DNA of 40,013 nucleotides from a virus. The stretch spans positions 1-40,013 of the IMG/VR virus record IMGVR_UViG_3300021438_000030. The stretch is one strand, 5' to 3'. Shown piece by piece: positions 5,392 through 40,013 of this stretch (its first letter is position 1; each line of letters begins with the position of its first letter). The position numbers and the translations under genes were made by a program. A model generated the notes under the pieces. The model had not been told where the DNA came from. It ran no database searches and worked only from the letters and a program-made list of their open reading frames with translations.

Positions 5392-5818
5392 TGTTCTTTT
5401 CCTTGAGTTTGGCTTCGACTGCGTCAACAACGTCTTCATAGCTCATAACAAGACCGCTTTTACTAAAAAGACAATCTTCTTTTTCACCATCCGTCAGCCC
5501 AACCCATGTGCGTTGTTGTGGTGTGGTGTAGAGCTTGTCGCCCATTTTTGCAATATACCCATCAGTCCATTGAAGTATTGGGTAATTACCGTATGGTGAT
5601 TGAACAAACCCACCCACAGGCTCACCCTGCTCTTGCTTGGCTAGTGCTTCTTCTAGGTCACAAAATGCGTAAAAGCATTTACGCAAATCAGACACGGAAA
5701 TCTGGCAGTGGATGTTTGCTTCCGTAATGCCGCCTTCATGCCGCGCTTCTACTTCTCTAAACATTCGCTTAAATGGCTCCAACGCCTCAAGCGCCAGCTT
5801 CATTGCTTCTTTACTCAT
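5384..5818 (-). CDS. small phage protein with LYTTPPQR-like motif
   Basis: A 144-residue protein. The start at 5818 (MSKEAMKLALEALEPF) is preferred to the longer frame from 5869, which would run into the next gene. The helical N-terminus and a later segment ending KLYTTPQQRTWVGLTDGE are characteristic of a modular family found in many proteobacterial phages, often in several copies. Function unknown. ATGA overlap with the upstream gene. Confidence 0.6.
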   Translation of the reverse strand: MSKEAMKLALEALEPFKRMFREVEARHEGGITEANIHCQISVSDLRKCFYAFCDLEEALAKQEQGEPVGGFVQSPYGNYPILQWTDGYIAKMGDKLYTTPQQRTWVGLTDGEKEDCLFSKSGLVMSYEDVVDAVEAKLKEKNNA

Positions 5819-6066
5819 AGCTTTATGCACTCCATGCCTTCCCATTTGCACACGGGATTTTCTTTGCACATGATGACAAACCCTTCAATTTCTTCATCGC
5901 CGCCAACGCTTTGGATTTCGTAACCATAGTCGCCAATTTGAATAACAACAGGAGCATTTGGATTAATCATGTCGTCAATGTTTCTGTCTTTTTGTGTGAG
6001 CCATACGTTTTCCGTATCAATCATGGCTTGCATAACGTCAATCATTGTTTGAGATTTGATTTTCAT
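5815..6066 (-). CDS. small hypothetical protein
   Basis: Encodes 83 residues from ATG 6066 (MKIKSQTMIDVMQAMIDTEN). It has a hydrophobic beta-like segment around VVIQIGDYGYEI and two cysteines near the C-terminus (IMCKENPVCKWEGMECIKL). Family not recognised. Its start overlaps the 34-residue frame by ATGA and its end overlaps the next gene by four bases, so it is embedded in a coupled string of genes. Confidence 0.5.
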   Translation of the reverse strand: MKIKSQTMIDVMQAMIDTENVWLTQKDRNIDDMINPNAPVVIQIGDYGYEIQSVGGDEEIEGFVIMCKENPVCKWEGMECIKL

Positions 6067-6167
6067 AAAGGGCTTTCTGGCAGTTGTGCGCGTTGCGCTT
6101 GGTTGTACGCTTGTTCTTGGGCTTTTGTCCACGGGATTGGTGGATAGGGTGGGAATGGCCAGTTCAT
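6063..6167 (-). CDS. 34-residue proline-rich peptide
   Basis: A short frame from ATG 6167 to TGA 6063. The sequence begins MNWPFPPYPPIPWTKAQEQA, followed by a Gln/Ala-rich helix. Short proline-tryptophan peptides of this type recur in phage early operons. Stop and next start overlap as ATGA, which supports real translation. Confidence 0.5.
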   Translation of the reverse strand: MNWPFPPYPPIPWTKAQEQAYNQAQRAQLPESPL

Positions 6168-6174
6168 GTTTACC

Positions 6175-6372
6175 TTAACGAGTTAATTTGCAAGCAATTA
6201 AAACGCTACAAGTTCCAGCCATTGCACTGAAATACGCATAAGCGCCTCTGGATAAATCCCACATAATTTCGCTATATTGATGGTTAAACCAAAACCAAAA
6301 AGTAAGGTCAACAACACCTAGCAGAGCGGGCAAAAAACAACCCAATCCAATTAAAAATAAAACTACATTCAT
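6175..6372 (-). CDS. small two-helix membrane protein
   Basis: A 65-residue hydrophobic protein with two probable transmembrane helices (VVLFLIGLGCFLPALLGVV, and AYFSAMAGTCSVLIAC) separated by an aromatic loop. The start at 6372 follows GAAAGGACAAGAT. It is preceded by a 52-base gap containing two inverted repeats. Position in an early operon argues against a holin; superinfection exclusion is a possibility only by analogy. Confidence 0.5.
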   Translation of the reverse strand: MNVVLFLIGLGCFLPALLGVVDLTFWFWFNHQYSEIMWDLSRGAYAYFSAMAGTCSVLIACKLTR

Positions 6373-6391
6373 ATCTTGTCCTTTCTTGTTT

Positions 6392-6406
6392 AACTCATTC
6401 CGAGTT
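6392..6406. repeat. short inverted repeat AACTC-5-GAGTT
   Basis: Perfect 5-bp arms with a 5-base centre between the NinB gene and the small membrane protein gene. It is immediately next to the larger palindrome at 6410-6428. Confidence 0.35.
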
Positions 6407-6409
6407 GAG

Positions 6410-6428
6410 ATAACTATACCATAGTTAT
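6410..6428. promoter_or_regulatory. perfect 19-bp palindrome, possible internal operator
   Basis: ATAACTAT-ACC-ATAGTTAT has perfect 8-bp arms. It covers the stop codon of the NinB gene and lies upstream of the small membrane protein gene. Its core CTATACCA is shared with the palindrome at 9520-9535 near the Cro-like gene, suggesting the same regulator, although the half-site spacing differs. There is no T-tract, so a terminator is less likely. Confidence 0.4.
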
Positions 6429-6844
6429 TGCCAGTCAGGTTCTTTGATGTCGATTCCGTTGGTTGCAGACCACATCAAGAGCCATTCGATGAACTCAGCG
6501 CCCTCGGCTTTGGTGAACTTTCGGCTTTGGATTCCAAGTTGAATGACATCCCCTCCATCCAATGAAGCGACCAAATCTCCTCGGTTACGGCCAGAATCTT
6601 TTGCCCATTGGTCAATGAGAAGACGTTTCCACGCTTCAACGTCCCATTTCGAGCCAACGTGTTCTGCCTGCTTCGCAATCTGACCAATGATGGCGTGGAA
6701 CTTTTTGTTTTGGGGGTCGCTGCGATGCTCCTCAGTGATCTCCAATATGACTTTCTTGCCGCCATAGATTGATTCCTTCACAATGTTCCACACCGCCAAC
6801 ATGGTGGCGTGGGCTTGTTTTTCTTCGTAGAGCTTGTACTTCAC
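6425..6844 (-). CDS. ninB: NinB-like recombination protein
   Basis: About 139 residues. The segment ILEITEEHRSDPQNKKFHAI (basic, near residue 34) followed by IAKQAEHVGSKWDVEAWKRL and a C-terminal TKAEGAEFIEWL matches lambda NinB (Orf), which binds ssDNA and SSB and helps load recombinases. The start is uncertain: GTG at 6844 overlaps the preceding stop as GTGA, while GTG at 6862 would extend it by six residues. It lies in one operon with RusA and a YbcO-like nuclease, all recombination-module functions. Confidence 0.8.
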   Translation of the reverse strand: MKYKLYEEKQAHATMLAVWNIVKESIYGGKKVILEITEEHRSDPQNKKFHAIIGQIAKQAEHVGSKWDVEAWKRLLIDQWAKDSGRNRGDLVASLDGGDVIQLGIQSRKFTKAEGAEFIEWLLMWSATNGIDIKEPDWQ

Positions 6845-7089
6845 AGGCGTTCCGCAGCGCACTCAGCGTAGCCAGAGATGTCATGCCAATGGTCATGGTA
6901 GTCTGGATTGCCATTCAGTACACGCGCAATTTTGTGAGCAATCATCTCCAACGCTTCAATCTGGTCTGGAGCCAGCTCAAGCAGGCCATGCTCACGCATC
7001 ACGGCTTTGAGTTGTTGACTGATAACCGCATGGGTTGCGAAATTGCCGTGTGTCTTTTGACGGGCTTTGAGAGTCTTCTGTATTGTCAT
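6841..7089 (-). CDS. DUF6378-like small protein
   Basis: An 82-residue protein with KTHGNFATHAVISQQLKAVM, a central QIEALEMIAHKIARVLNGNP and a C-terminal HDHWHDISGYAECA. These are the conserved features of DUF6378, a small phage family. The family recalls nucleotide-pyrophosphatase-like helical proteins, but no activity is established to my knowledge. It overlaps RusA upstream and NinB downstream by four bases each. Confidence 0.7.
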   Translation of the reverse strand: MTIQKTLKARQKTHGNFATHAVISQQLKAVMREHGLLELAPDQIEALEMIAHKIARVLNGNPDYHDHWHDISGYAECAAERL

Positions 7090-7439
7090 GCTATCTCCAC
7101 AATAAGTTTACGGGTTGATTTATCGCCAAATTGACGATGGATTTCGATGGGTTGGAAGAACTTGTCATTCACCATCAAGGCATCTGACAGTCCATCCAAC
7201 GCACCTTTCGCTGCCGCTAGGCAGTTATCAGCATCACGCATCCGTTTGTCGGGCATGATGAATGTCAGCTTGAGGCGAATGTCTTTGCCGTCATGCTTCC
7301 AATCTTTGATCTGGTGTTTTGCAAGGAAGGTTGAGTTGTCGCGGTAGTCACTGCGGACTTGGTACAGCTTGGCCCAATGCGTTCCTTTTGCGCGGTTTGG
7401 GAATAGTTCGGCAGGAGGGAAATCGAGTTCAATTCGCAT
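7086..7439 (-). CDS. rusA: RusA-like Holliday junction resolvase
   Basis: A 117-residue protein, the usual RusA length. The catalytic acidic residues are visible as D69 and D71 (RMRDADN) and D92 (MVNDKFF), matching the three essential aspartates of RusA. Lys and Arg are frequent around them. RusA dimers cleave four-way DNA junctions symmetrically, here probably resolving replication or recombination intermediates before packaging. It overlaps the upstream gene by 11 bases. Confidence 0.9.
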   Translation of the reverse strand: MRIELDFPPAELFPNRAKGTHWAKLYQVRSDYRDNSTFLAKHQIKDWKHDGKDIRLKLTFIMPDKRMRDADNCLAAAKGALDGLSDALMVNDKFFQPIEIHRQFGDKSTRKLIVEIA

Positions 7440-17581: not shown

Positions 17582-20014
17582 TTATTCCAGTTTCTTCTCC
17601 AGCTCAAGCACTCGCTCTGCCAACTCAATGGCAATCACAAGAGCCGCTGGCCCATAGTTTACCGACAAAAAGCCGTTCTCGTTTTCAAGCACTGCCTCTG
17701 CCAAGGCTAAAAGCATTGACTGAGCAGATACACCAACGTGCTTGCCTTCAACGTCCACGCGCTCATAGATACCGCGCTTGACTTGAACGACTCGCTCCAA
17801 CAATCCGTCAGGCAGCTCTGTCCAATTCTTTTTCAATCGGTCATCAGATGAGCCAGTCACCGTTACGGCTGTCAATGCTCCTGTTGACGGCAGGAATGAA
17901 ACAGGGCTTGTTGTCGAAACAATTGGAGTTTGGTTTGAGCCAGATGCGGCAACACCAACAATGTATTGAGTTGTTGCTGCGGTACTTGCCGTTGCGTTGA
18001 TTGCAGTTGATGGGCCAGCTCCGCCAGCGGCTCCAGAATATCCAGAATAGCCTGAATATCCGCTAGTTCCAGTTGAGCCATTGGCTCCGCTATAACCACT
18101 GAAACCGGATGTTCCTGTTGCGCCTGTTGCTCCCGAATAGCCACTGAAACCTGACGTTCCAGTTGCACCTGTTGCACCAGAATAGCCGCTGAAACCAGAT
18201 GCTCCAGTTGCTCCTGTAGCTCCAGAATAACCAGAGAAGCCGCTTGTGCCGTTTGTTCCGTTTGTGCCAGAGTATCCAGAGAAGCCAGATGCACCAGTTG
18301 CGCCTGTAGCCCCCGAGTAACCAGAGAAACCGCTGGCTCCAGTTGCCCCGTTTGTGCCTGAATATCCACTGAATCCAGAGATGCCAGACCAACCAGAAAT
18401 TCCAGAATATCCAGAGAAGCCACTTGCGCCGTTTGAACCTGTTACACCAGAGTAGCCACTGATACCTGAGAAGCCAGAGTATCCAGAGATTCCACTGAAA
18501 CCAGAGATTCCGCTGAATCCAGAAGCACCAGAGAAACCACTGTAGCCTGATTGGGTATACATCACCTGAGTTGCGGTCACAATGACGGAAGGACTGCGTG
18601 GACTGACTGGTGATGTACCCGCTGCCAATGTGTCCATTTGCACTTGAGTGCTGTCAGCGGCCCAGTACAACTGCAAATAGTCACCAGCCGCAAGGGTCAA
18701 AACATAGTTGACACTTGGAACCAAAGCGCCGTTTGTGCCGCCATGTTTGTTTGGAACGCTGAATGTGCTGTTTGAATCTACAACGTCAGTTCCATTTTTA
18801 CGCAGCCAAACTTGAGCATCGTGAATCTGAGTGTCGGTGTTGATTAACTGAGCAGTCCAAGTGACGCTGTATGTTCCAGCATTGGCAAACGTGATTTGAT
18901 TGCCGCCAACAATGCTTACACCATTGGCTTCATCGGTGATGCCAATGTTGATTGGTTGCGCCGTTGTCGTGTTTGGCAAAGTCTGATTGGTCGCATCTTG
19001 GAAAGCGCCATAAAAGCCTTGAGCGCCACCGCCGCCGTTCTGACCGCTAAAGCCAGAGAAGCCGGATGTTCCGCTGAATCCTGAGATTCCTGAGAAACCA
19101 GAGATGCCGCTGTAGCCACTGAACCCAGAAATGCCAGAGAAGCCACTGATACCGGAATACCCAGACCACCCGCTTACACCGGAGCCAGAGAAACCCGAGA
19201 TGCCGGAGAAGCCGGAGTAGCCAGAGATTCCAGAGTAACCGGAGATACCTGAAAAACCAGAGATGCCCGAGTAACCGCTGAAACCGGAGATGCCGGAAAA
19301 ACCAGAGATGCCAGACCATCCAGAGGTTCCACTAAAACCCGAGATGCCTGAATATCCCGAGTAACCACTGATACCAGAAAAGCCAGAAATGCCCGAGAAA
19401 CCAGAATATCCAGAAATTCCAGAGTACCCAGAGATGCCTGAGAAGCCAGAGATGCCTGAGTAACCGCTAAAACCGGAGATGCCAGAGAAACCAGACTCGC
19501 CAGACCACCCTGAAATTCCGCTGAATCCAGAAATGCCTGACGCTCCTGAATATCCGCTAATACCCGAAAATCCGCTGATACCAGACCAGCCAGAAGCGCC
19601 ACTGATACCAGACCAACCAGAGATACCAGAGAAGCCGCTTGCGCCGCTGATACCCGACCATCCAGACGTTCCAGAGAACCCGCTGATACCAGAGTAGCCT
19701 GAGTAGCCGGAGATGCCTGAAAAGCCCGATGCGCCACTCCAGCCAGAAATTCCAGAGAATCCGCTGAACCCAGAAATACCCGAATATCCGGAAAAGCCTG
19801 AATAGCCACTTATGCCAGACGAGCCAGATGCGCCTACGCCGCTGTAACCGCTGTACCCAGAATAGCCGGAGAAGCCGCTTGCACCATACAAACCACGGTC
19901 AACTTTGATCGTGTTGTTTGGCGGAGTAGTGATATTGATGTTCTGACGCGCTGGCGGCTGAACAACAATCTCGACATTGTTTTGATTAACAACCTTGACT
20001 GAAATATCTGCCAT
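17582..20014 (-). CDS. collagen-like Gly-X-Ser tail fibre with C1q-like and S74 chaperone domains
   Basis: An 810-residue fibre. Residues 1-42 are a probable attachment head. Residues about 43-325 are Gly-X-Y triplets, nearly all GFS, GIS, GYS, GWS or GAS, with Ser at Y and no proline. Residues about 330-490 form a C1q-like jelly-roll (GFYGAFQDATNQTLPN and so on). A second array (about 490-660) mixes GFSGYSG with GATGATG. The C-terminal 89 residues start SSDDRLKKNW, the S74 intramolecular chaperone with its Ser-Asp cleavage site, and end in a coiled coil. It probably forms a trimeric receptor-binding fibre. Confidence 0.9.
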   Translation of the reverse strand: MADISVKVVNQNNVEIVVQPPARQNINITTPPNNTIKVDRGLYGASGFSGYSGYSGYSGVGASGSSGISGYSGFSGYSGISGFSGFSGISGWSGASGFSGISGYSGYSGISGFSGTSGWSGISGASGFSGISGWSGISGASGWSGISGFSGISGYSGASGISGFSGISGWSGESGFSGISGFSGYSGISGFSGISGYSGISGYSGFSGISGFSGISGYSGYSGISGFSGTSGWSGISGFSGISGFSGYSGISGFSGISGYSGISGYSGFSGISGFSGSGVSGWSGYSGISGFSGISGFSGYSGISGFSGISGFSGTSGFSGFSGQNGGGGAQGFYGAFQDATNQTLPNTTTAQPINIGITDEANGVSIVGGNQITFANAGTYSVTWTAQLINTDTQIHDAQVWLRKNGTDVVDSNSTFSVPNKHGGTNGALVPSVNYVLTLAAGDYLQLYWAADSTQVQMDTLAAGTSPVSPRSPSVIVTATQVMYTQSGYSGFSGASGFSGISGFSGISGYSGFSGISGYSGVTGSNGASGFSGYSGISGWSGISGFSGYSGTNGATGASGFSGYSGATGATGASGFSGYSGTNGTNGTSGFSGYSGATGATGASGFSGYSGATGATGTSGFSGYSGATGATGTSGFSGYSGANGSTGTSGYSGYSGYSGAAGGAGPSTAINATASTAATTQYIVGVAASGSNQTPIVSTTSPVSFLPSTGALTAVTVTGSSDDRLKKNWTELPDGLLERVVQVKRGIYERVDVEGKHVGVSAQSMLLALAEAVLENENGFLSVNYGPAALVIAIELAERVLELEKKLE
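18030..18550 (-). repeat. nucleotide repeats coding for the second Gly-X-Y array
   Basis: Imperfect tandem repeats in multiples of nine bases within the fibre gene, coding GFSGYSGAT-type units. Such arrays expand or contract by slippage, so the copy number is likely to vary between strains. Limits are approximate. Confidence 0.8.
19040..19885 (-). repeat. nucleotide repeats coding for the first Gly-X-Ser array
   Basis: About 850 bases of imperfect nine-base repeats encoding GFSGISGYSG-type units, roughly 94 triplets. Synonymous codons are varied between copies, which would slow homologous slippage. Limits are approximate. Confidence 0.85.
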
Positions 20015-31119: not shown

Positions 31120-31644
31120 TTAAGTGTTGTTAGACCAACCGTAGCTGTTGCCGCCAACGGGGTGGATAGCAAACTGGTACTTGCCTTCGGCAGCAGGAGA
31201 CATATCCCACTTCAAGCCGCCAATGCGAGCATTGAAAGCGTAGGCAACAGTGTCAGTGCCGTCATATACAGCGATGACATAGGTACGGATGGTTGTTCCG
31301 TTGTAACCGTCTTCACGAATCAACAACTGAGCAGGGTCAGCAGGGTTCCATGCAGATGTGACGTTCAGGGAAGTCACTTGGTTTTGAGTGGTGATCTTTG
31401 CACCAGTGCGAGCGCCAGCCACAGAGTAAGCAGCCACAGCATCGTCAGAACCGAATGCAGGCACAGCTTCCACGGGGATAAGCAAACCGCCGCCGCCAGT
31501 ACCACCAGCCTCAGTGCCGATGATGTCAGCAACTTGACCTGTCCATGTGGCCAATTGAGCGTCAGTCAATGGAGTGGGAGAAGCGCCTTCTTGCATCCAG
31601 ATCGTTGCAACGTAACCGGGTAAGACTTTATTGATGAGAGCCAT
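31120..31644 (-). CDS. major tail tube protein
   Basis: A 174-residue protein starting MALINKVLPGYVATIWMQEG at ATG 31644; the frame from 31704 would overlap upstream sequence without need. Small, Ala/Gly/Thr-rich and beta-strand-like (RTYVIAVYDGTDTVAYAFNA). Its place after the terminator gene and before the chaperone is that of the tail tube gene in siphophages. Confidence 0.75.
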   Translation of the reverse strand: MALINKVLPGYVATIWMQEGASPTPLTDAQLATWTGQVADIIGTEAGGTGGGGLLIPVEAVPAFGSDDAVAAYSVAGARTGAKITTQNQVTSLNVTSAWNPADPAQLLIREDGYNGTTIRTYVIAVYDGTDTVAYAFNARIGGLKWDMSPAAEGKYQFAIHPVGGNSYGWSNNT

Positions 31645-31679
31645 TTTGATTTCCTTTGAAAAGAGTTGATGTAACTGTC

Positions 31680-32440: not shown

Positions 32441-33112
32441 TTACATCACCAATGGTTTGTAAGGGCGCAGCAACATCTGGACACCCCAAGGAATGTTGTG
32501 CTGGATTGGGCCGGTAGTGTCACTACGGTTGTTGTAAAGGTGGGTCAACAACAACAAACCAGCCTGTTTGATTACGGGGTAAGCCGCCAAGGGGTTTGCT
32601 GCTGTTGTGTAGTCACAGATTACAGGCGAAGTCATCGAAGTGTTTAGGTTCGTTGGCAGATTCGCAATGACAACTTTGTTGCCGGATTCGTCGTAGTAAT
32701 ACTGGCCAACATCCACCGTGATTAACTCAGGTGGGTTGTTGTCATTCCAATACCGCACAGCGTCCACGGTAACGCCCGTCAGCAGGGGGTCTGAGTTCTG
32801 GCTAACCTCTGGCAAGTCCAACGCCAAAGGAGTGCCATACAAGCTCGCAGCGTTGTAATACACACGATATGACGTTGGGAAGATGGACAGACCAAGGAAA
32901 TCCTCAATCGCCATCCGAACAGCAAGTTCAAGGCCAGACAGGTATGTGTCTTGGCTTTCGTCACCAAACAAGTTCAACTGATTGGTGATTTCATCCAGAG
33001 TCAACCAAGCGGTCGAAATGTCACGACTGATTTGCTCCGTCTTTGCGTAGTTGAACGGATTGCGCGTGGGCGCACCGTAATTCAAATAACCGAGTTGGGA
33101 ATCAACGGACAT
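32441..33112 (-). CDS. head-tail connector (phage gp6-like)
   Basis: A 223-residue protein. The segment WLTLDEITNQLNLFGDESQD, then a helical region with LELAVRMAIEDFLGLSIFPT and a C-terminal LLLLTHLYNNRSDT, is the standard gp6/phiE125 gp8 adaptor pattern. It forms the ring below the portal. The next gene follows directly. Confidence 0.75.
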   Translation of the reverse strand: MSVDSQLGYLNYGAPTRNPFNYAKTEQISRDISTAWLTLDEITNQLNLFGDESQDTYLSGLELAVRMAIEDFLGLSIFPTSYRVYYNAASLYGTPLALDLPEVSQNSDPLLTGVTVDAVRYWNDNNPPELITVDVGQYYYDESGNKVVIANLPTNLNTSMTSPVICDYTTAANPLAAYPVIKQAGLLLLTHLYNNRSDTTGPIQHNIPWGVQMLLRPYKPLVM

Positions 33113-33122
33113 TTTTTACCTC

Positions 33123-34139
33123 TTAGGCTGCGCTCATACGAACACCCGCGAACGGGTCACGCACCGACGATACCATACGTTTTTCAGCGTATAGAGTGAT
33201 GAAGCCGGGCTGAGTTTGTTCATACATCTGAACATTCATCTGCTCGGTGTCACCGATTGTCAAAAAGCGATTCCAGTTTGCCAAGTAGACAGGGAAATCA
33301 GCAGACAGGTATGGGTTTGGAATCACAGGCCAGCCGAATACGCGACCAACAGCAGCGCCGTCAGCATCACCGATTTCCAAGAATAGAGGCATACCAGAGC
33401 TGTCTTTCAACTCACGCAGAGCCAAGATCATTGCTGGACTCATGTGCCAAGCTGTACCTTCCAAAGACCAATACTGAGCAGGCAGAGCGTTTGCTGTTGC
33501 CACGATCTCGTTGTAGGTCACAGGAGAGCCATCCATAGAGATGGTGGCAATAGAGTGCAAGCCATCGGTGATTGCAGTACCGCTGGAGCCATATGCGCTT
33601 GTGGAGGCAGATGGATAGCTGTCCAAACCGCGCAGACCCAACTCGCCACCTGTGGAAGTGGTTGTTGTGCCAGATTGGTCATTGTTCAGAACCATCGACT
33701 GACCTTCTAATTGGGCAAATTCCAAGGCCAAATCTTCGACGATTGCTGTGTCCAAAGCGTTCACATCCGACAAAACGGCGGAGCGAACTGGAAGTTGAGC
33801 AACCAGTACACGAACTGGCAATTGCCAAATCGTTGTATCAACATCAGGAGAGCCTGAGTTGGGAGTGAATTCATAACCCCAAGGGTTTGTTGCATCAGCG
33901 GCGTTACCAGTCTTGGCAACGAGCTGGAAGTCAGAGCCAATTACAGGCACTTGACGAGAGCCTTGACGCAAAGGGTTTGCTTGGCGCAAAGCAGCAAAAG
34001 CGTCATCAAAGACAACATTACCACCAACACCCGAGCCAGAGCCAGTCAATGCCGAGGCTTCTTTCAGGTCAATGGTGACAGAGCCACCTTCGGTAATTGC
34101 TTGCTTGATGCCGTTCAGGATTTTTTCGGTGATAGTCAT
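33123..34139 (-). CDS. second HK97-fold major capsid protein paralogue, no delta domain
   Basis: A 338-residue capsid protein from ATG 34139 (GGAAT upstream), starting MTITEKILNGIKQAITEGGS. It lacks the long N-terminal scaffold region of the first capsid gene but shares the body in order: EASALTG, ANPLR, KTGNA, PWGYEF, TTIWQLPV, LNNDQSG, ELGLRGLD and a C-terminal VRDPFAGVRMSA. Tandem paralogues may be hexamer and pentamer proteins, a minor capsid protein, or a spare copy. Confidence 0.85.
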   Translation of the reverse strand: MTITEKILNGIKQAITEGGSVTIDLKEASALTGSGSGVGGNVVFDDAFAALRQANPLRQGSRQVPVIGSDFQLVAKTGNAADATNPWGYEFTPNSGSPDVDTTIWQLPVRVLVAQLPVRSAVLSDVNALDTAIVEDLALEFAQLEGQSMVLNNDQSGTTTTSTGGELGLRGLDSYPSASTSAYGSSGTAITDGLHSIATISMDGSPVTYNEIVATANALPAQYWSLEGTAWHMSPAMILALRELKDSSGMPLFLEIGDADGAAVGRVFGWPVIPNPYLSADFPVYLANWNRFLTIGDTEQMNVQMYEQTQPGFITLYAEKRMVSSVRDPFAGVRMSAA

Positions 34140-34158
34140 AGTTATTCCAATGAAAGTT

Positions 34159-34185
34159 AAAAAGATGGGGAGCGAACTCCCCATC
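34159..34185 (-). terminator. intrinsic terminator between the two capsid genes
   Basis: On the minus strand GATGGGGAG, loop TTCG, CTCCCCATC, then TTTTT: a perfect 9-bp stem with a UUCG tetraloop and a U-tract. It lies 12 bases after the first capsid stop and 20 bases before the second capsid start. It would lower expression of the second capsid gene and all downstream tail genes relative to the first capsid. Confidence 0.9.
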
Positions 34186-34196
34186 CAAGGCAACTA

Positions 34197-35543
34197 TCAG
34201 GTTGCAGTAGCAGTTGAGCGATAACGCACACCTGCAAACGGGTCACGCACAGATGTTGCCAAACGCTTCTCACCGAAGAAGGTGATGTAGCCGGGCAATG
34301 TCTGGTCGTAACGGCGCATAACCATGTTCAGACGGTCAACGGTCGTGTGGAAACGCGACCAATCAGCGAAGTACATTGGGAACAAGTTGGTTGTACCAGC
34401 AGAACCAGTAGTAGTCTGGTTAGGAGTGTCCAAATACTTGTTAACCACAACGTCAAAGCCAGCCAAACGACCGACGATGCCGGGAGTGCTTTCCAATGGA
34501 GACATACGCTCGAACACAGGAGTGCCGTTGGTGTCTGTCAAGCCACGGATTGCAGCCAACATAAATGGGTTCACCATGATCTTTGCATCTGGTGTCCAGT
34601 ATTGTTGTGGCAAAGCGTACAAGAAGTTGATAACGTCTTTGTAGGTCACGTTGTTGGTAGTCACGCTGTTGGTGTTTGAAGTCAACTGGTCGTAAGTAGC
34701 CAAGCTATGCAAACCGCTAGTAGAACCAGTACCAGAGCTACCGAAAGCAGCAGTAGTAGTTTGGCCACCAGAGTAAGAACCAGCAGAACCAGCATATTGG
34801 TTCAAGCCGCGCAGACCGTTAGAGCCGCCGTATGGCAAGCTGGTAGAGCCTTGGTCGTTGTTCTGAATCATGCCCAGAGCTTCTGCTTGAGCGAATTCAG
34901 CCAACATATCGTCAACCACGTTTGCTTCCAAGCCGTCGATGTCGTCCAGAGCAGCGGTACGGATTGGGAACTGAACGTTCAAATCTTGCAAAACGAGTTG
35001 CCAGATTGAAGTGTTTTCAGTTGTTGCCGAACCGTTGTTTTGGATGCCGTAGCCCCAAGCAGCGCCAGCGTTGCCGGTCTTCACACGGAATTGATAGCTA
35101 GAACCATCAGTTGCAACAGTGCGAGTGATACCGCGCAATGGGTTGTTCAAACGCAGAGCGACGAACACAGGGTCATACGCAGTACGACCACCTTTGCCAT
35201 CACCGCCACCAGTCAATGCTGAGGCTTCGGCCAAGTATGCAGCGTGTTGAGCTTCATCAGCAAACACTTGCAGTTCTTTTTCGACGTTGCGGCCACCTTT
35301 ATAGAAGGCAGACAACTGCTCGCGCACATGACGGTTTACGTCTTGACGAGTAGTCTTAGCCAAAGGCTTGATGATCGCGGGGGCAGGGATAGCGGCAACT
35401 TTGGCTTCCAAAGATGCAACCATTTCGCTGAATTCAGCTTTGACAGCTTCAACAGCAGCGGGGATTTTTGCTTCAACAGCTTGGATGGCTTCGACTTGTT
35501 TAGTTTCGATAGCGTCCAATTTTTCAAGGATGACTTGAGACAT
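34197..35543 (-). CDS. major capsid protein with N-terminal delta scaffold domain
   Basis: A 448-residue HK97-fold capsid protein. Residues 1-60 form a coiled-coil scaffold (LEKLDAIETKQVEAIQAVEA), likely removed by the S78 protease encoded just upstream. The mature body starts around residue 100 with EASALTGGGDGKGG and includes LNNPLRGITRTVAT, KTGNAGAAWGYG, TSIWQLVLQDLNVQ, NNDQGSTS, SNGLRGLNQY and FGEKRLATSVRDPFAGVRYR. It directly follows the protease gene. Confidence 0.95.
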   Translation of the reverse strand: MSQVILEKLDAIETKQVEAIQAVEAKIPAAVEAVKAEFSEMVASLEAKVAAIPAPAIIKPLAKTTRQDVNRHVREQLSAFYKGGRNVEKELQVFADEAQHAAYLAEASALTGGGDGKGGRTAYDPVFVALRLNNPLRGITRTVATDGSSYQFRVKTGNAGAAWGYGIQNNGSATTENTSIWQLVLQDLNVQFPIRTAALDDIDGLEANVVDDMLAEFAQAEALGMIQNNDQGSTSLPYGGSNGLRGLNQYAGSAGSYSGGQTTTAAFGSSGTGSTSGLHSLATYDQLTSNTNSVTTNNVTYKDVINFLYALPQQYWTPDAKIMVNPFMLAAIRGLTDTNGTPVFERMSPLESTPGIVGRLAGFDVVVNKYLDTPNQTTTGSAGTTNLFPMYFADWSRFHTTVDRLNMVMRRYDQTLPGYITFFGEKRLATSVRDPFAGVRYRSTATAT

Positions 35544-35545
35544 GA

Positions 35546-36349
35546 TTAACCTTTCAGGCGTTTGTCGAGGAGTTTGAGGAGTTCGCGTTGCTCAAGAGCA
35601 GCGAGAATTTCCGCTTCTTTGGTTGCTTCCACATCAGAATCACTCTGCTGAGTTGCATTTTCAGTCTGGTCATCTTGTGCATCACGCATTTCGATAACCT
35701 TCTTGAAGACAGATGCAGCAGCAACCGCATCTTTTCGGATTAGCCCTGCATCCCGCAGTGCTTGTTCCAAAACTTTCAGGTCAGCAGTGCCATCAGCGCG
35801 GAAATATTCCAGCTTTTGCACTTCTGCCATTGGATTGTTTGGGTACATCACGACAGACACTTCACGCAGACCGCCCTTGGTGATCTGGAAGTAGCCATCT
35901 TCGTATGGATTGTCAGAACCAACGGTCATTGGAGTGCCGTCTTCTTTAGTCCACTGATATTCTTCTGCGTATGCGCCAACAGAAACGCCACCAAACATAT
36001 TTGGCGACTCGCTCATCACTTGATACAAGTCAGAGCCTTGTGTGGTGTTCACATACAAGCGACCACAAGCCGTCATGCCTTTGTCGTCAAACTCAAACGA
36101 TGTCCACTCGCCCACAGGGATAGAGTCAGCATCGTGGTTCACGAACATTGGGAGAGGACGACCAGCTTTGCTGAATGCCTCTGCCCATTGCATGAATGCT
36201 TCGGGTTGATAGTTGAACTTGCGGCCATCAGCGCCTTCGCGTGGCCCCCAAGTTGTGACAACGGCTTCAATATTGCCTGTTGGCTCTGCGTTGTCTGCCT
36301 TTTCGAGTACCAGCTTGGCCTCGCACACCATCATCAAGTTTTGCGTCAT
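35546..36349 (-). CDS. prohead protease (S78, HK97 gp4-like)
   Basis: A 267-residue serine protease of the HK97 prohead type. Candidate catalytic residues are H72 (MFVNHDAD) and S123 (GGVSVGAY), with the core strand LREVSVVMYPNNP also typical. The C-terminal region is a charged coiled coil (residues 200-267), perhaps a scaffold part. It cleaves the capsid delta domain during maturation. Two bases separate it from the capsid gene. Confidence 0.9.
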   Translation of the reverse strand: MTQNLMMVCEAKLVLEKADNAEPTGNIEAVVTTWGPREGADGRKFNYQPEAFMQWAEAFSKAGRPLPMFVNHDADSIPVGEWTSFEFDDKGMTACGRLYVNTTQGSDLYQVMSESPNMFGGVSVGAYAEEYQWTKEDGTPMTVGSDNPYEDGYFQITKGGLREVSVVMYPNNPMAEVQKLEYFRADGTADLKVLEQALRDAGLIRKDAVAAASVFKKVIEMRDAQDDQTENATQQSDSDVEATKEAEILAALEQRELLKLLDKRLKG

Positions 36350-36482: not shown

Positions 36483-37880
36483 TTATTTGCCGATGTTTGC
36501 TTTATTCCGTTGATTACCACCACCACCGCCAGTGTCTTGTGGGCTTGAACCTGCAATTGGGTCGGTTGCTTTTGTGTCTTGCTTCAATTCATCGCCGCCA
36601 TCAATCTTGGCTTTGCCCAAGTATTCACGCGCTTCATTGGGAGTCAAGATGCCAGAATCAACAGCAGCTTTCACATAGTTCATCTGGTCAAGCGGAGCGC
36701 CCTTCAAGAAGTCCGATGTGTCAAACTCAATCGAAAGAGATGGATAGCCATTGAGCAATTGCTGCTTCAATTTCTCTTGGATGTTCACAACTGTTGGATA
36801 CATCGTTCCCTTATAGAACTCATCCAACAATGTTTGCGTGTTGTTGTACTTCTGATCTGCAATGCCAACCATTGCAGGAGGCACACCGAACAAACCACAG
36901 ATACGCTTCATGGTTTGAATCTTCAAATCATGCGCTTGAGTATCTTGCAGTGTCAGGATGTTGATTGGCGTGTACTTCATGCCCTGATCGAGCAACATAC
37001 CTTGGCCGGGCTTTGACTCGTCAGTGCGCTGGCTACCAGTCATGTTTGACCAAGCCTCTTTCAGACGCGCAGCCAATTCTTTGTACTTGCCATCAGGGAT
37101 GACTTGCTCGGTCGTGAACATACCCGTTGGCTTCGCGCCATTGAGCATGATGAAGTTGGCATAAACGTCGATGTCTTGATCGAGCGTCACCAACTCAGCA
37201 GCCAAGATGCCTTTGTTGAAACCGGCAGAACCTTGCCATGCTGCCTCTTTAATGTGCATCACTTGATGCGCGGCCAGAGGCTCATCTTTGCTGAAACCGT
37301 ATGAAGGCGTGGACAAACGGTACGAAGGGTAACGAGCAGGATTGATCGTGACGGCAATCAGCGTCGAGTCCAACACATACATTTCAATCGGAGTCTGTGA
37401 AGGATTCTTCTGGTCTTCTCTCCACCATAAGGTAAAGGCTTCGCCAGACAATTCGTACCACATGAGCCACTGATACCAGAACTCATATTTCGATTGGAAA
37501 TTGTTTGGGCTATTTAGCAGGCGAGAAACTTGCTTGGCTTTATTCTTGTCACGCGCACCAACTGATTTGTCGCTGACGGCATCTAGAAAGACTCCATCAT
37601 CTTGCTGAGACATGATTTTAATGGGGAGCTGTGCAAGTGCGCGAGCTTTAACGCCAACACAAGCCATGACGGTGCTGTTGCGCGTCAACAGACTCATGTC
37701 GATTGGACGACCAGCAGTATTCGTGCTGGATGTTGTCACATAAAGGACTTGAGTATTTACCGTGGGGCGCGTATTGCTGCCCGAGTAGATGATGTTGTTG
37801 CCAAGAGCCGTTTGACCAAAAAGCGTGTTGCTTTCGTTGGCTTGCGTTGGTTTGCGTTTAAGAAAATCGAAAATAGCCAT
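36483..37880 (-). CDS. portal protein (HK97 gp3-like)
   Basis: A 465-residue portal protein from ATG 37880, preceded by AGGAGCTGAT. Starts MAIFDFLKRK. Key features: TRNSTVMACVGVKARALAQL, a middle LWWREDQKNP, KRICGLFGVPPAMVGIADQK (residues around 330-350), and the helical LDQMNYVKAAVDSGILTPNE with REYLG. The C-terminus is Gly/Asn-rich. It forms the dodecameric ring at one capsid vertex where terminase docks. Confidence 0.95.
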   Translation of the reverse strand: MAIFDFLKRKPTQANESNTLFGQTALGNNIIYSGSNTRPTVNTQVLYVTTSSTNTAGRPIDMSLLTRNSTVMACVGVKARALAQLPIKIMSQQDDGVFLDAVSDKSVGARDKNKAKQVSRLLNSPNNFQSKYEFWYQWLMWYELSGEAFTLWWREDQKNPSQTPIEMYVLDSTLIAVTINPARYPSYRLSTPSYGFSKDEPLAAHQVMHIKEAAWQGSAGFNKGILAAELVTLDQDIDVYANFIMLNGAKPTGMFTTEQVIPDGKYKELAARLKEAWSNMTGSQRTDESKPGQGMLLDQGMKYTPINILTLQDTQAHDLKIQTMKRICGLFGVPPAMVGIADQKYNNTQTLLDEFYKGTMYPTVVNIQEKLKQQLLNGYPSLSIEFDTSDFLKGAPLDQMNYVKAAVDSGILTPNEAREYLGKAKIDGGDELKQDTKATDPIAGSSPQDTGGGGGNQRNKANIGK

Positions 37881-37910
37881 ATCAGCTCCTAGTTTCCGTG
37901 ATGTTATCAC

Positions 37911-39584
37911 TCAAAATAATCGAAGTCCATAAGAGTCTGAAACGAAAACATTGTCTAGATGGCAATGCAAAGCCATAATCATTGCGATGATTCCGTCCAC
38001 TTTGGCAGATGGGTCGGCTTCGTTTTTTCTCACTTTTACGTTACCGTTTACGTCCGTGTAGACCTCACAGTTGCCCAACTGCCATCCCACAAACGGATTT
38101 CCGTCATGCTTGATGGCTTTTTTGAGGATAAGCTGTTCTGCCGTTTTCGACGGGTTTGAAAGGACGGCCATACCTTGTCCAACCTTTTTGACTGGAAGGC
38201 CATAGGAGAACAAGTTGGCCACCAAAGCAGCAGCGTTATAAGGGTCGTAACCAATTTCCTTGACTTCATACAGCTCTGCCTCTTGTCGAATATAGGACTC
38301 AATCTCGTTTAGATCGGTCACGTTGCCCGGTGTCAGGTGCAATATGCCAGATGCCACAGCCTGACTGAAAATTGACTTGTAATGGTTTGGAATCAGCTCA
38401 ATCGACTCCTCGGGCAAGAAGAACTTGAATTTGGCGTACAGGTCTTCCTCGGCATATCGGTGAAGCGTCACCACGGCATTCAAATCTCGGCTGTGGGCCA
38501 AGTCGAATCCGATGAACGTGGCCTCTGGCTTGTCAGTGGGCAACGGAGCCACAGATTCATCCCAATATCGGCGGTCAACCCACGCAGCGTTTGAGCTGAC
38601 GTAAATGTTGAGCTGCTTGCACAAGAATTCGTTGAGGGATGCAGGCTTGCTCTTGGCTTCGTCGGCCATGTGCTGAATCGCCTCAGTCGTCACCGACACA
38701 CCCAACATTGGGTTGGCTTTGCCCCATACAGAAGGGTCAGACCATTCGTCGCCGGGGTCTACGGAGTACAGCAGGCCAAACCAACGGAACGAATCTTCCG
38801 CAGCGCCACGCAGCACAGCACGAAAGTGATTCAAGTCCTCGTAGAACTTTGTCTCTTTGGTGAAGCTGGCCGTTGTCAGATACATCCTCAAAGGATTCTT
38901 ACGCGCAGCCATACCTGAGTGCAAGACCTCGATGGAACCACGCTCAGTGATCTGCGCGGCCTCGTCGATCATGGCACATGACGGGTTTTTACCGTCACCA
39001 GTTTTACGGTTCTCGCGGGACAGGGCGCGGTAGGTAGATGTGGAATCGCCAGCCTTTTTCAGCTCACTTCGGAACGGAATGAATCGGCTTTGCAATTCAG
39101 GAGCCATGCTTTCCATGATGGCCTTGGACGAATCGAAGCAAATTGATGCCTGCTCACGGTTGGTCGCCAGCGTGAACACTTCGGGGCCAGCCTCGCCAAA
39201 CAGCAATTCATACAGGGCAATGATGGACGCAAGCGTGGTCTTTCCAGACTTTCGTGGCACAAACAGGATAACGTCCGTCACCCATCGGTTGCTGTGATCT
39301 GATTTATTGCGGAATCCATATACGGCCGCGAGGAATAGAACCTGAAATCCCTCAAGCTCAATCGACTTGCCTGCATCTGGCCCTTTGACGTGGCGGCAGA
39401 ACTTGGCGAACTTGAGGATGTGTTCAGCCTTGGCCGGGACGAATTCGTAGGGCGCATCCTTGCGCTCAACCATGTCCAAGAATCGCTGGCAAGCAATCTT
39501 GACATCCTCGCAAGCGAGTTGGTCGCCGCGAACTACGGCAGTGGCGTACTTAAACGCAGGCTCAAGCAGTGTTGAATAGCTCAT
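37911..39584 (-). CDS. terL: large terminase subunit (Terminase_1 type)
   Basis: A 557-residue packaging motor. The ATPase has Walker A PRKSGKTT (110-117) and Walker B CAMIDEA (203-209). The C-terminal nuclease has GFDLAHSRDLNAVV (about residue 350), IGYDPYNAAALV and KVDGIIAMIMAL. This Terminase_1 type is typical of HK97-like phages, many of them cos packagers. It overlaps the small terminase gene by 23 bases. Confidence 0.95.
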   Translation of the reverse strand: MSYSTLLEPAFKYATAVVRGDQLACEDVKIACQRFLDMVERKDAPYEFVPAKAEHILKFAKFCRHVKGPDAGKSIELEGFQVLFLAAVYGFRNKSDHSNRWVTDVILFVPRKSGKTTLASIIALYELLFGEAGPEVFTLATNREQASICFDSSKAIMESMAPELQSRFIPFRSELKKAGDSTSTYRALSRENRKTGDGKNPSCAMIDEAAQITERGSIEVLHSGMAARKNPLRMYLTTASFTKETKFYEDLNHFRAVLRGAAEDSFRWFGLLYSVDPGDEWSDPSVWGKANPMLGVSVTTEAIQHMADEAKSKPASLNEFLCKQLNIYVSSNAAWVDRRYWDESVAPLPTDKPEATFIGFDLAHSRDLNAVVTLHRYAEEDLYAKFKFFLPEESIELIPNHYKSIFSQAVASGILHLTPGNVTDLNEIESYIRQEAELYEVKEIGYDPYNAAALVANLFSYGLPVKKVGQGMAVLSNPSKTAEQLILKKAIKHDGNPFVGWQLGNCEVYTDVNGNVKVRKNEADPSAKVDGIIAMIMALHCHLDNVFVSDSYGLRLF

Positions 39585-39933
39585 CTATGGCAGTGGGTGT
39601 TGATGTCTTCTTGGGGCGACCACGGGCCACAAGCGCAAGCTCGGCCAGAATCTTGATTGCTTTGTCGAGACATTCGGTTCTTATCTTGTAGTACGGAGAT
39701 GTGGCAGGGCCAGAGTTGTAATGCTCGATCATGCCTTGCGTCTGGATGATCTTCTCGGCATCAATCAAACTTTGCATGGTCATCACCAACATTCCCACCA
39801 GCGTTTCATCGCTGGCCGTCAAAGCACCAGTTGAGCTTTCAACTTCATTACGAATCTGAGTCTCAAAAGCAGTCGCGTCCCATGTGTCAGGTTCACGAAT
39901 GTAATTGATGATGTGTTTAGGTGCTTTTTTCAT
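39562..39933 (-). CDS. terS: small terminase subunit
   Basis: A 123-residue protein from ATG 39933 (AAGGGAATTCCC upstream), starting MKKAPKHIINYIREPDTWDA. Helical, with a middle IEHYNSGPATSPYYKIRTEC and a basic RGRPKKTSTP tail near the C-terminus. This composition and its place before the large subunit match the P27-like small terminase. It recognises the packaging site; with a circular map the left-end HNH gene would precede it. Confidence 0.8.
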   Translation of the reverse strand: MKKAPKHIINYIREPDTWDATAFETQIRNEVESSTGALTASDETLVGMLVMTMQSLIDAEKIIQTQGMIEHYNSGPATSPYYKIRTECLDKAIKILAELALVARGRPKKTSTPTAIDELFNTA

Positions 39934-40013
39934 GGGAATTCCCTTAAATCCTGTCAAGTAGTATAGCTTACTCCCCCTGTTGAGTTACCTATCCTACGAA
40001 ATTGACAAATCGG
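39934..40013 (-). other. right-end leader upstream of the small terminase
   Basis: Eighty bases without a gene. GGGAATTCCC (39934-39943), a palindrome, is next to the terminase start codon. TATACT occurs on the minus strand without a good -35. If the ends join, this and 1-326 form a stretch of about 400 bases that could hold the cos site. Confidence 0.35.

Follow-up and report, generated by a model that had tools for sequence, protein, structure and literature searches.

The head module and its two capsid genes

The window, the whole 40,013-nucleotide stretch of viral DNA analysed here, carries on its minus strand a siphophage head module in the standard gene order. Two capsid genes, MCP1 and MCP2, lie between the genes for the protease and the head-tail adaptor:

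39562..39957, minus strand: terminase small subunit (Pfam PF05119, E 6.8e-07)
37911..39584, minus strand: terminase large subunit (phrog_9, E 3.1e-132)
36483..37910, minus strand: portal protein (Pfam PF04860, E 5.2e-62)
35546..36349, minus strand: HK97 gp4-type prohead maturation protease (Peptidase_S78; Pfam PF04586, E 1.9e-10)
34197..35543, minus strand: MCP1, HK97-type major capsid protein precursor with an N-terminal scaffold (delta-like) region, 448 aa (PF05065, E 3.6e-24)
35235..35543, minus strand: scaffold (delta-like) region, MCP1 residues 1-103 (from the alignment of MCP1, MCP2 and HK97 gp5 and from model secondary structure)
34158..34186, minus strand: intrinsic terminator-like hairpin and T-run in the MCP1/MCP2 spacer, GGATGGGGAGTTCGCTCCCCATCTTTTT
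33123..34139, minus strand: MCP2, second HK97-type capsid protein, 338 aa, ATG start (PF05065, E 7.8e-21)
32441..33112, minus strand: head-tail adaptor (Ad1-like), directly after MCP2 (phrog_40, E 6.6e-10)

The protease is about 30% identical to HK97 gp4, and its NCBIfam score of 41.1 bits lies below the cut-off of 59. Elsewhere on the same strand, 31120-31647 is a possible major tail protein gene; of the window genes compared, it comes nearest to MCP1 in codon usage. Its start codon is provisional, the range used ending on AAA. A tail-fibre-like gene (17582-20014, minus strand) matches many PHROG tail families, some of them collagen-like.

A sequence-only reading of the window had claimed two tandem capsid paralogues at this locus. 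Both open reading frames are where it placed them, and the alignment of the two proteins that it had proposed gives 41% identity across the capsid core (MCP1 residues 104-440 against MCP2 residues 25-334; BLASTP, 221 bits, E 5e-73). The conserved segments it had named (EASALTG, NPLR, KTGNA and others) are present in both proteins, and profile-profile comparison relates MCP1 to MCP2 with a probability of 100% (E 2.4e-81). Both proteins score above the curated cut-offs of Pfam Phage_capsid PF05065 (86.1 bits for MCP1 and 75.1 bits for MCP2; cut-off 24.2) and of NCBIfam TIGR01554 major_cap_HK97 (92.5 and 76.1 bits; cut-off 27.5). By sequence homology, MCP1 and MCP2 are thus confirmed as tandem paralogues of the HK97-type major capsid protein.

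PF05065 is the sole Pfam match for the pair, which places neither protein in the T4 gp23/gp24 sequence family, and the matches to capsid PHROGs are phrog_10, 15928 and, for MCP2 alone, 617; we therefore do not file MCP2 as a gp24 homologue. With the MCP1 family profile, a sequence search finds the Rhodobacter GTA capsid (E 3.8e-08). HK97 gp5 itself aligns to the two family profiles with low probability (hhalign, 11% and 22%); Pfam and NCBIfam therefore carry the family assignment, supported by Foldseek. Since the alignments are shallow, confidence in the AlphaFold2 models is low (mean pLDDT 48 and 43.5); they were built without the phage P19250A sequences (see below) and serve as weak support only. 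The MCP2 model nevertheless retrieves HK97-fold shells of the PDB in Foldseek, namely the EcCI2 PICI capsid (E 1.2e-08), the Rhodobacter GTA capsid (4.4e-07) and HK97 (2.0e-05), and the MCP1 model gives no more than a partial match to HK97-fold capsids.

We place the start of MCP2 at ATG 34139, as the aligned start codon is a methionine in each of the 137 relatives whose MCP2 is complete. The frame first proposed for MCP2 (33123-34193) has to be shortened accordingly: its TTG start at 34193 falls within the intergenic hairpin region, and the conserved codon is the ATG.

The same reading held that MCP2 lacks a 100-residue scaffold. Most of the scaffold is indeed gone, about 79 N-terminal residues being missing, but a 25-residue segment is kept, which is probably helical according to the alignment with MCP1 and HK97 gp5. 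HK97 gp5, a protein of 385 aa, is cleaved at about residue 103/104. On the 385-position TIGR01554 model, MCP1 matches 10-381 and MCP2 matches 104-381; the MCP2 match thus begins where the mature HK97 subunit begins, and MCP2 therefore lacks most of the scaffolding (delta) domain. The remaining length difference is made up by three segments of about 8-13 residues each that the alignment with HK97 gp5 finds in MCP1 only (MCP1 ~253-261, 288-295 and 375-387). In MCP1, where the TIGR01554 match runs from position 10 and a protease gene lies upstream, the scaffold region is mostly helical in the model (helices 2-51 and 65-83); only its last part has a counterpart in MCP2. By analogy with HK97, MCP1 would be cleaved near residues 104-110.

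A protein without most of the scaffold domain, encoded beside the head-tail adaptor gene, might act as an assembly factor, namely an initiator, size-setting or portal-nucleating subunit missing from the virion or rare in it. However, the HK97-type core of MCP2 is conserved throughout its length, and we regard a role of this kind as quite unlikely.

Distribution and evolution of the pair

Among the genomes of the phage collection, a good match was found only in Methylophilaceae phage P19250A (KX815270), which has the same two genes in the same order (P19250A_0005 and P19250A_0006), separated by a hairpin-bearing spacer. Identity to the window is 62% for MCP1 and 56% for MCP2. The two P19250A genes are annotated as 'gene transfer agent capsid protein' and 'hypothetical protein', and the pair goes unremarked both in that annotation and in the capsid passages of the literature that was text-searched.

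In IMG/VR, relatives are encoded on hundreds of contigs, and the pair is present in at least 239 of the loci retrieved by capsid sequence. To avoid the circularity of capsid-based retrieval, we also retrieved loci by portal and by protease. Among the best 80 matches of each scan, MCP1 is followed by MCP2 in every informative locus, that is, in 52 of 52 retrieved by portal and 51 of 51 retrieved by protease; a more distant portal gave 37 of 37 among its best 80. These counts are of loci, not all of which lie on distinct contigs. The remaining loci have no capsid match, or one of the two, as the contig ends within or beside the head module. Four bacterial MAG contigs carry relatives, all with the pair. 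The capsid pair is a clade-wide trait.

We found no relative with a single capsid gene; every member given by the viral-contig scans (best 80 matches each) has the pair. Nor did the search of bacterial genomes turn up a single-gene ancestor: the next homologues there are remote, scoring 43 bits at best where the paralogues score about 250 with each other. A light test of the sequence-only reading's statement that few siphophages have adjacent capsid genes used 300 genomes from a single bacterial order; PF05065 matches occurred in 54 of them and showed no other adjacent pair. This pair count is a lower bound, because in several records the first-look filter overlooked even the known MCP2.

Individual loci depart from the common arrangement. 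MCP2 is split by a frameshift in L144 (5889-6865) and L209 (5821-6752), in both of which MCP1 is intact; these may be sequencing or assembly errors or a real loss. In L116, a 180-codon open reading frame (5704-6246, plus strand; start MFYTYIHFRQDDGIPFYVGKGKG) is inserted between the terminator hairpin and MCP2. It resembles a GIY-YIG homing endonuclease by eye and has no Pfam match at E 0.001.

To reconstruct the history of the pair, we built a tree in which 76 representatives were joined by HK97 gp5 and by nine capsid proteins encoded in bacterial genomes. MCP1 (support 0.82), MCP2 (1.0) and the two together (0.995) are each monophyletic, indicating a single duplication before the clade diversified, and the tree gives no sign of gene conversion between the two lineages. 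MCP2 has evolved 1.6 to 1.9 times faster than MCP1. Median dN/dS over 980 pairs is 0.138 and 0.137 for the two capsid genes, so that both are under purifying selection. Judged by this selection and by the conservation of the pair across the clade, the second copy is shown to be functional and not a relic. The two frameshift-broken metagenomic copies would be expected if MCP2 were a decaying duplicate or an assembly artefact; yet MCP2 is intact in 197 unique pairs at a dN/dS of about 0.14, and it is present in the genome of the isolate P19250A. We give this explanation almost no credence, and regard it as ruled out by conservation and dN/dS.

The spacer hairpin and expression signals

The spacer between MCP1 and MCP2 is 56-90 nt long in 139 of the 140 relatives measured. 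In the window it holds a hairpin (34158..34186) of 10 pairs, 6 of them G-C, which ranks first among the terminator-like sites of the region by pairs and G-C pairs. A terminator-like hairpin occupies the spacer in 196 of 197 unique pairs; in the lone exception, L308, the hairpin is present and its T-run is interrupted. At control positions, such sites occur in 8 of 196 cases (80 nt after MCP2) and 2 of 195 (80 nt before MCP1). Folding energy averages -21.2 kcal/mol for the spacers and -11.2 kcal/mol for shuffled spacers, and two-sided changes that keep the pairing are seen at seven of nine pairs of the stem. With its GC-rich hairpin of conserved structure and the T-run that follows, the spacer is predicted to hold an intrinsic terminator. 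No promoter-like site was found in the spacer, and the simplest reading is that expression of MCP2 relies on read-through of the hairpin. As far as we have searched the literature, this conserved regulatory element has not been reported before.

The coding sequences differ in expression signals as well. Among 27 window genes that were compared, MCP1 is the most strongly codon-biased (Nc 37.0; the next gene has 39.3), and the bias of MCP2 is moderate (Nc 42.7). The effective number of codons is lower for MCP1 than for MCP2 in 69 of 76 representatives, and Shine-Dalgarno matches are longer for MCP1. Codon bias, ribosome-binding sites and the predicted terminator together suggest indirectly that MCP2 is probably made in lower amount than MCP1. 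This pattern speaks for an abundant MCP1 in the shell, alongside a conserved subunit from the same family, MCP2, that is probably scarcer.

The moderate codon bias of MCP2 and the 41% identity over the whole core would also suit reversed or shared roles, with both paralogues abundant and interchangeable and heads built from a variable mixture. Against such interchange stand the separate monophyly of the two lineages, the lack of any sign of gene conversion in the tree and the expression signals, the last of which favour MCP1; we consider reversed or shared roles very unlikely.

A terminator also follows gene 10 of T7, and the HK97 module has a putative one after its capsid gene. Such an arrangement is not unusual for a capsid gene, so the hairpin points to high expression of MCP1 and is no proof that MCP2 occupies the vertices. 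Hairpin, weaker codon bias and weaker ribosome-binding sites fit a scarce vertex subunit and any other minor shell component equally well.

Candidate roles of MCP2 and related systems

The head module resembles that of HK97 (gp5/gp4) in its protease, its capsid precursor with fused scaffold, its putative terminator and its adaptor genes, and the capsid proteins belong to the same Pfam and NCBIfam families. HK97, however, builds hexamers and pentamers from one capsid gene, whereas here MCP2 sits just beyond the terminator slot. T7 likewise has two forms of its major capsid protein, gp10A and gp10B, but its minor form arises by frameshift from one gene. MCP2 is encoded by a gene apart: a stop codon and a spacer precede its own start, which rules out a frameshift variant of the 10A/10B type.

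A further parallel is T4, in which eleven of the twelve vertices consist of gp24, a protein believed to have arisen through duplication of gp23; the two are about 20% identical, and their propeptides are 10 (gp24) and 65 (gp23) residues long (PMC9958956). In T4 as here, two paralogues of the HK97 kind (by sequence family in our case) are paired and the minor one has a much shorter N-terminal part, and MCP2, like gp24-type vertex proteins, is a paralogue of the major capsid protein. The systems differ in paralogue identity (about 20% versus 41%) and in scaffolding, T4 being a myovirus with a separate scaffold core and MCP1 having a fused scaffold region. By analogy with gp24, MCP2 may occupy the vertices.

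We propose the following model. An ancestor of this siphophage clade would have duplicated its HK97-type capsid gene, and the downstream copy, without most of the scaffold domain and without the three internal segments, would have become a dedicated minor shell subunit. The abundant subunit, which forms the hexamers, would be MCP1 with the scaffold domain that it carries itself. Transcription reaching the end of MCP1 would mostly halt at the conserved hairpin, so that MCP2 would be made only from transcripts that run through. MCP2 would then co-assemble on the MCP1 lattice by way of the MCP1 scaffold domains and would most likely form eleven vertex pentamers, as T4 gp24 does. For a T=7 head holding a genome of roughly 40 kb, this would correspond to 55 copies of MCP2 versus 360 of MCP1. 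The lower abundance of MCP2, its co-assembly, its vertex position and the T number are all inferred, and we put the chances of the model as a whole, with MCP1 as hexamer subunit and MCP2 as minor shell subunit, most likely the vertex pentamer, at about even.

Most of the probability outside the vertex model goes to other minor-shell roles. MCP2 could be a non-vertex subunit that takes one quasi-equivalent position in mixed hexamers or lies around the portal vertex. The low-expression signals fit this as they fit any minor component, and in a regional comparison of divergence the N-arm and P-domain segments of MCP1 and MCP2 are still alike. However, segments around and within the A domain, which meets its counterparts inside a capsomer, differ in length between the paralogues, and we know of no mixed HK97-fold hexamers of two paralogues in tailed phages. 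We regard a non-vertex position as unlikely.

In that comparison the A domain, at the centre of the capsomer, first stood out as divergent between the paralogues, as would be predicted of a vertex protein. After log-scale correction for the rate within each paralogue, its ratio of cross to within log-identity (about 2.6) does not exceed those of the E-loop (about 3.2) and of the P-domain strands at the C-terminus (about 2.9), and we therefore dropped the A-domain argument for a vertex position.

HK97-fold capsid paralogue pairs are already known from T4-like phages; a clade-wide siphophage pair with a conserved hairpin is, as far as we could find, new, and no description of the MCP1/MCP2 pair was found in the literature searched. 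Bacillus phage B450T, a siphovirus, has adjacent open reading frames, ORF6 and ORF7, that are annotated as 'two distinct major capsid proteins' (PMC12786184). Its head is elongated, and the likeness of ORF6 and ORF7 to our pair is one of annotation.

How one fold gives both hexamers and pentamers is central to the study of capsid assembly, and the textbook example in which two genes share the task is T4. If the vertex model holds, the clade would add another example: a small siphophage whose scaffold is fused to the capsid protein, with 41% identity between the paralogues and a cultured member, P19250A. Such a system, simpler than T4 for testing how capsid labour is divided, would help to show whether splits of this kind are recurrent and what advantage they bring. 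The conserved terminator suggests how the dose of a minor subunit may be set. That a large, uncharacterised clade of aquatic siphophages arrived independently of T4 at such a division of labour, with the dose of the vertex subunit set by a conserved terminator, has in our estimate slightly less than an even chance of being correct.

For P19250A, the annotation can be corrected now: the label 'hypothetical protein' of P19250A_0006 (6066-7124) should be changed to second capsid gene.
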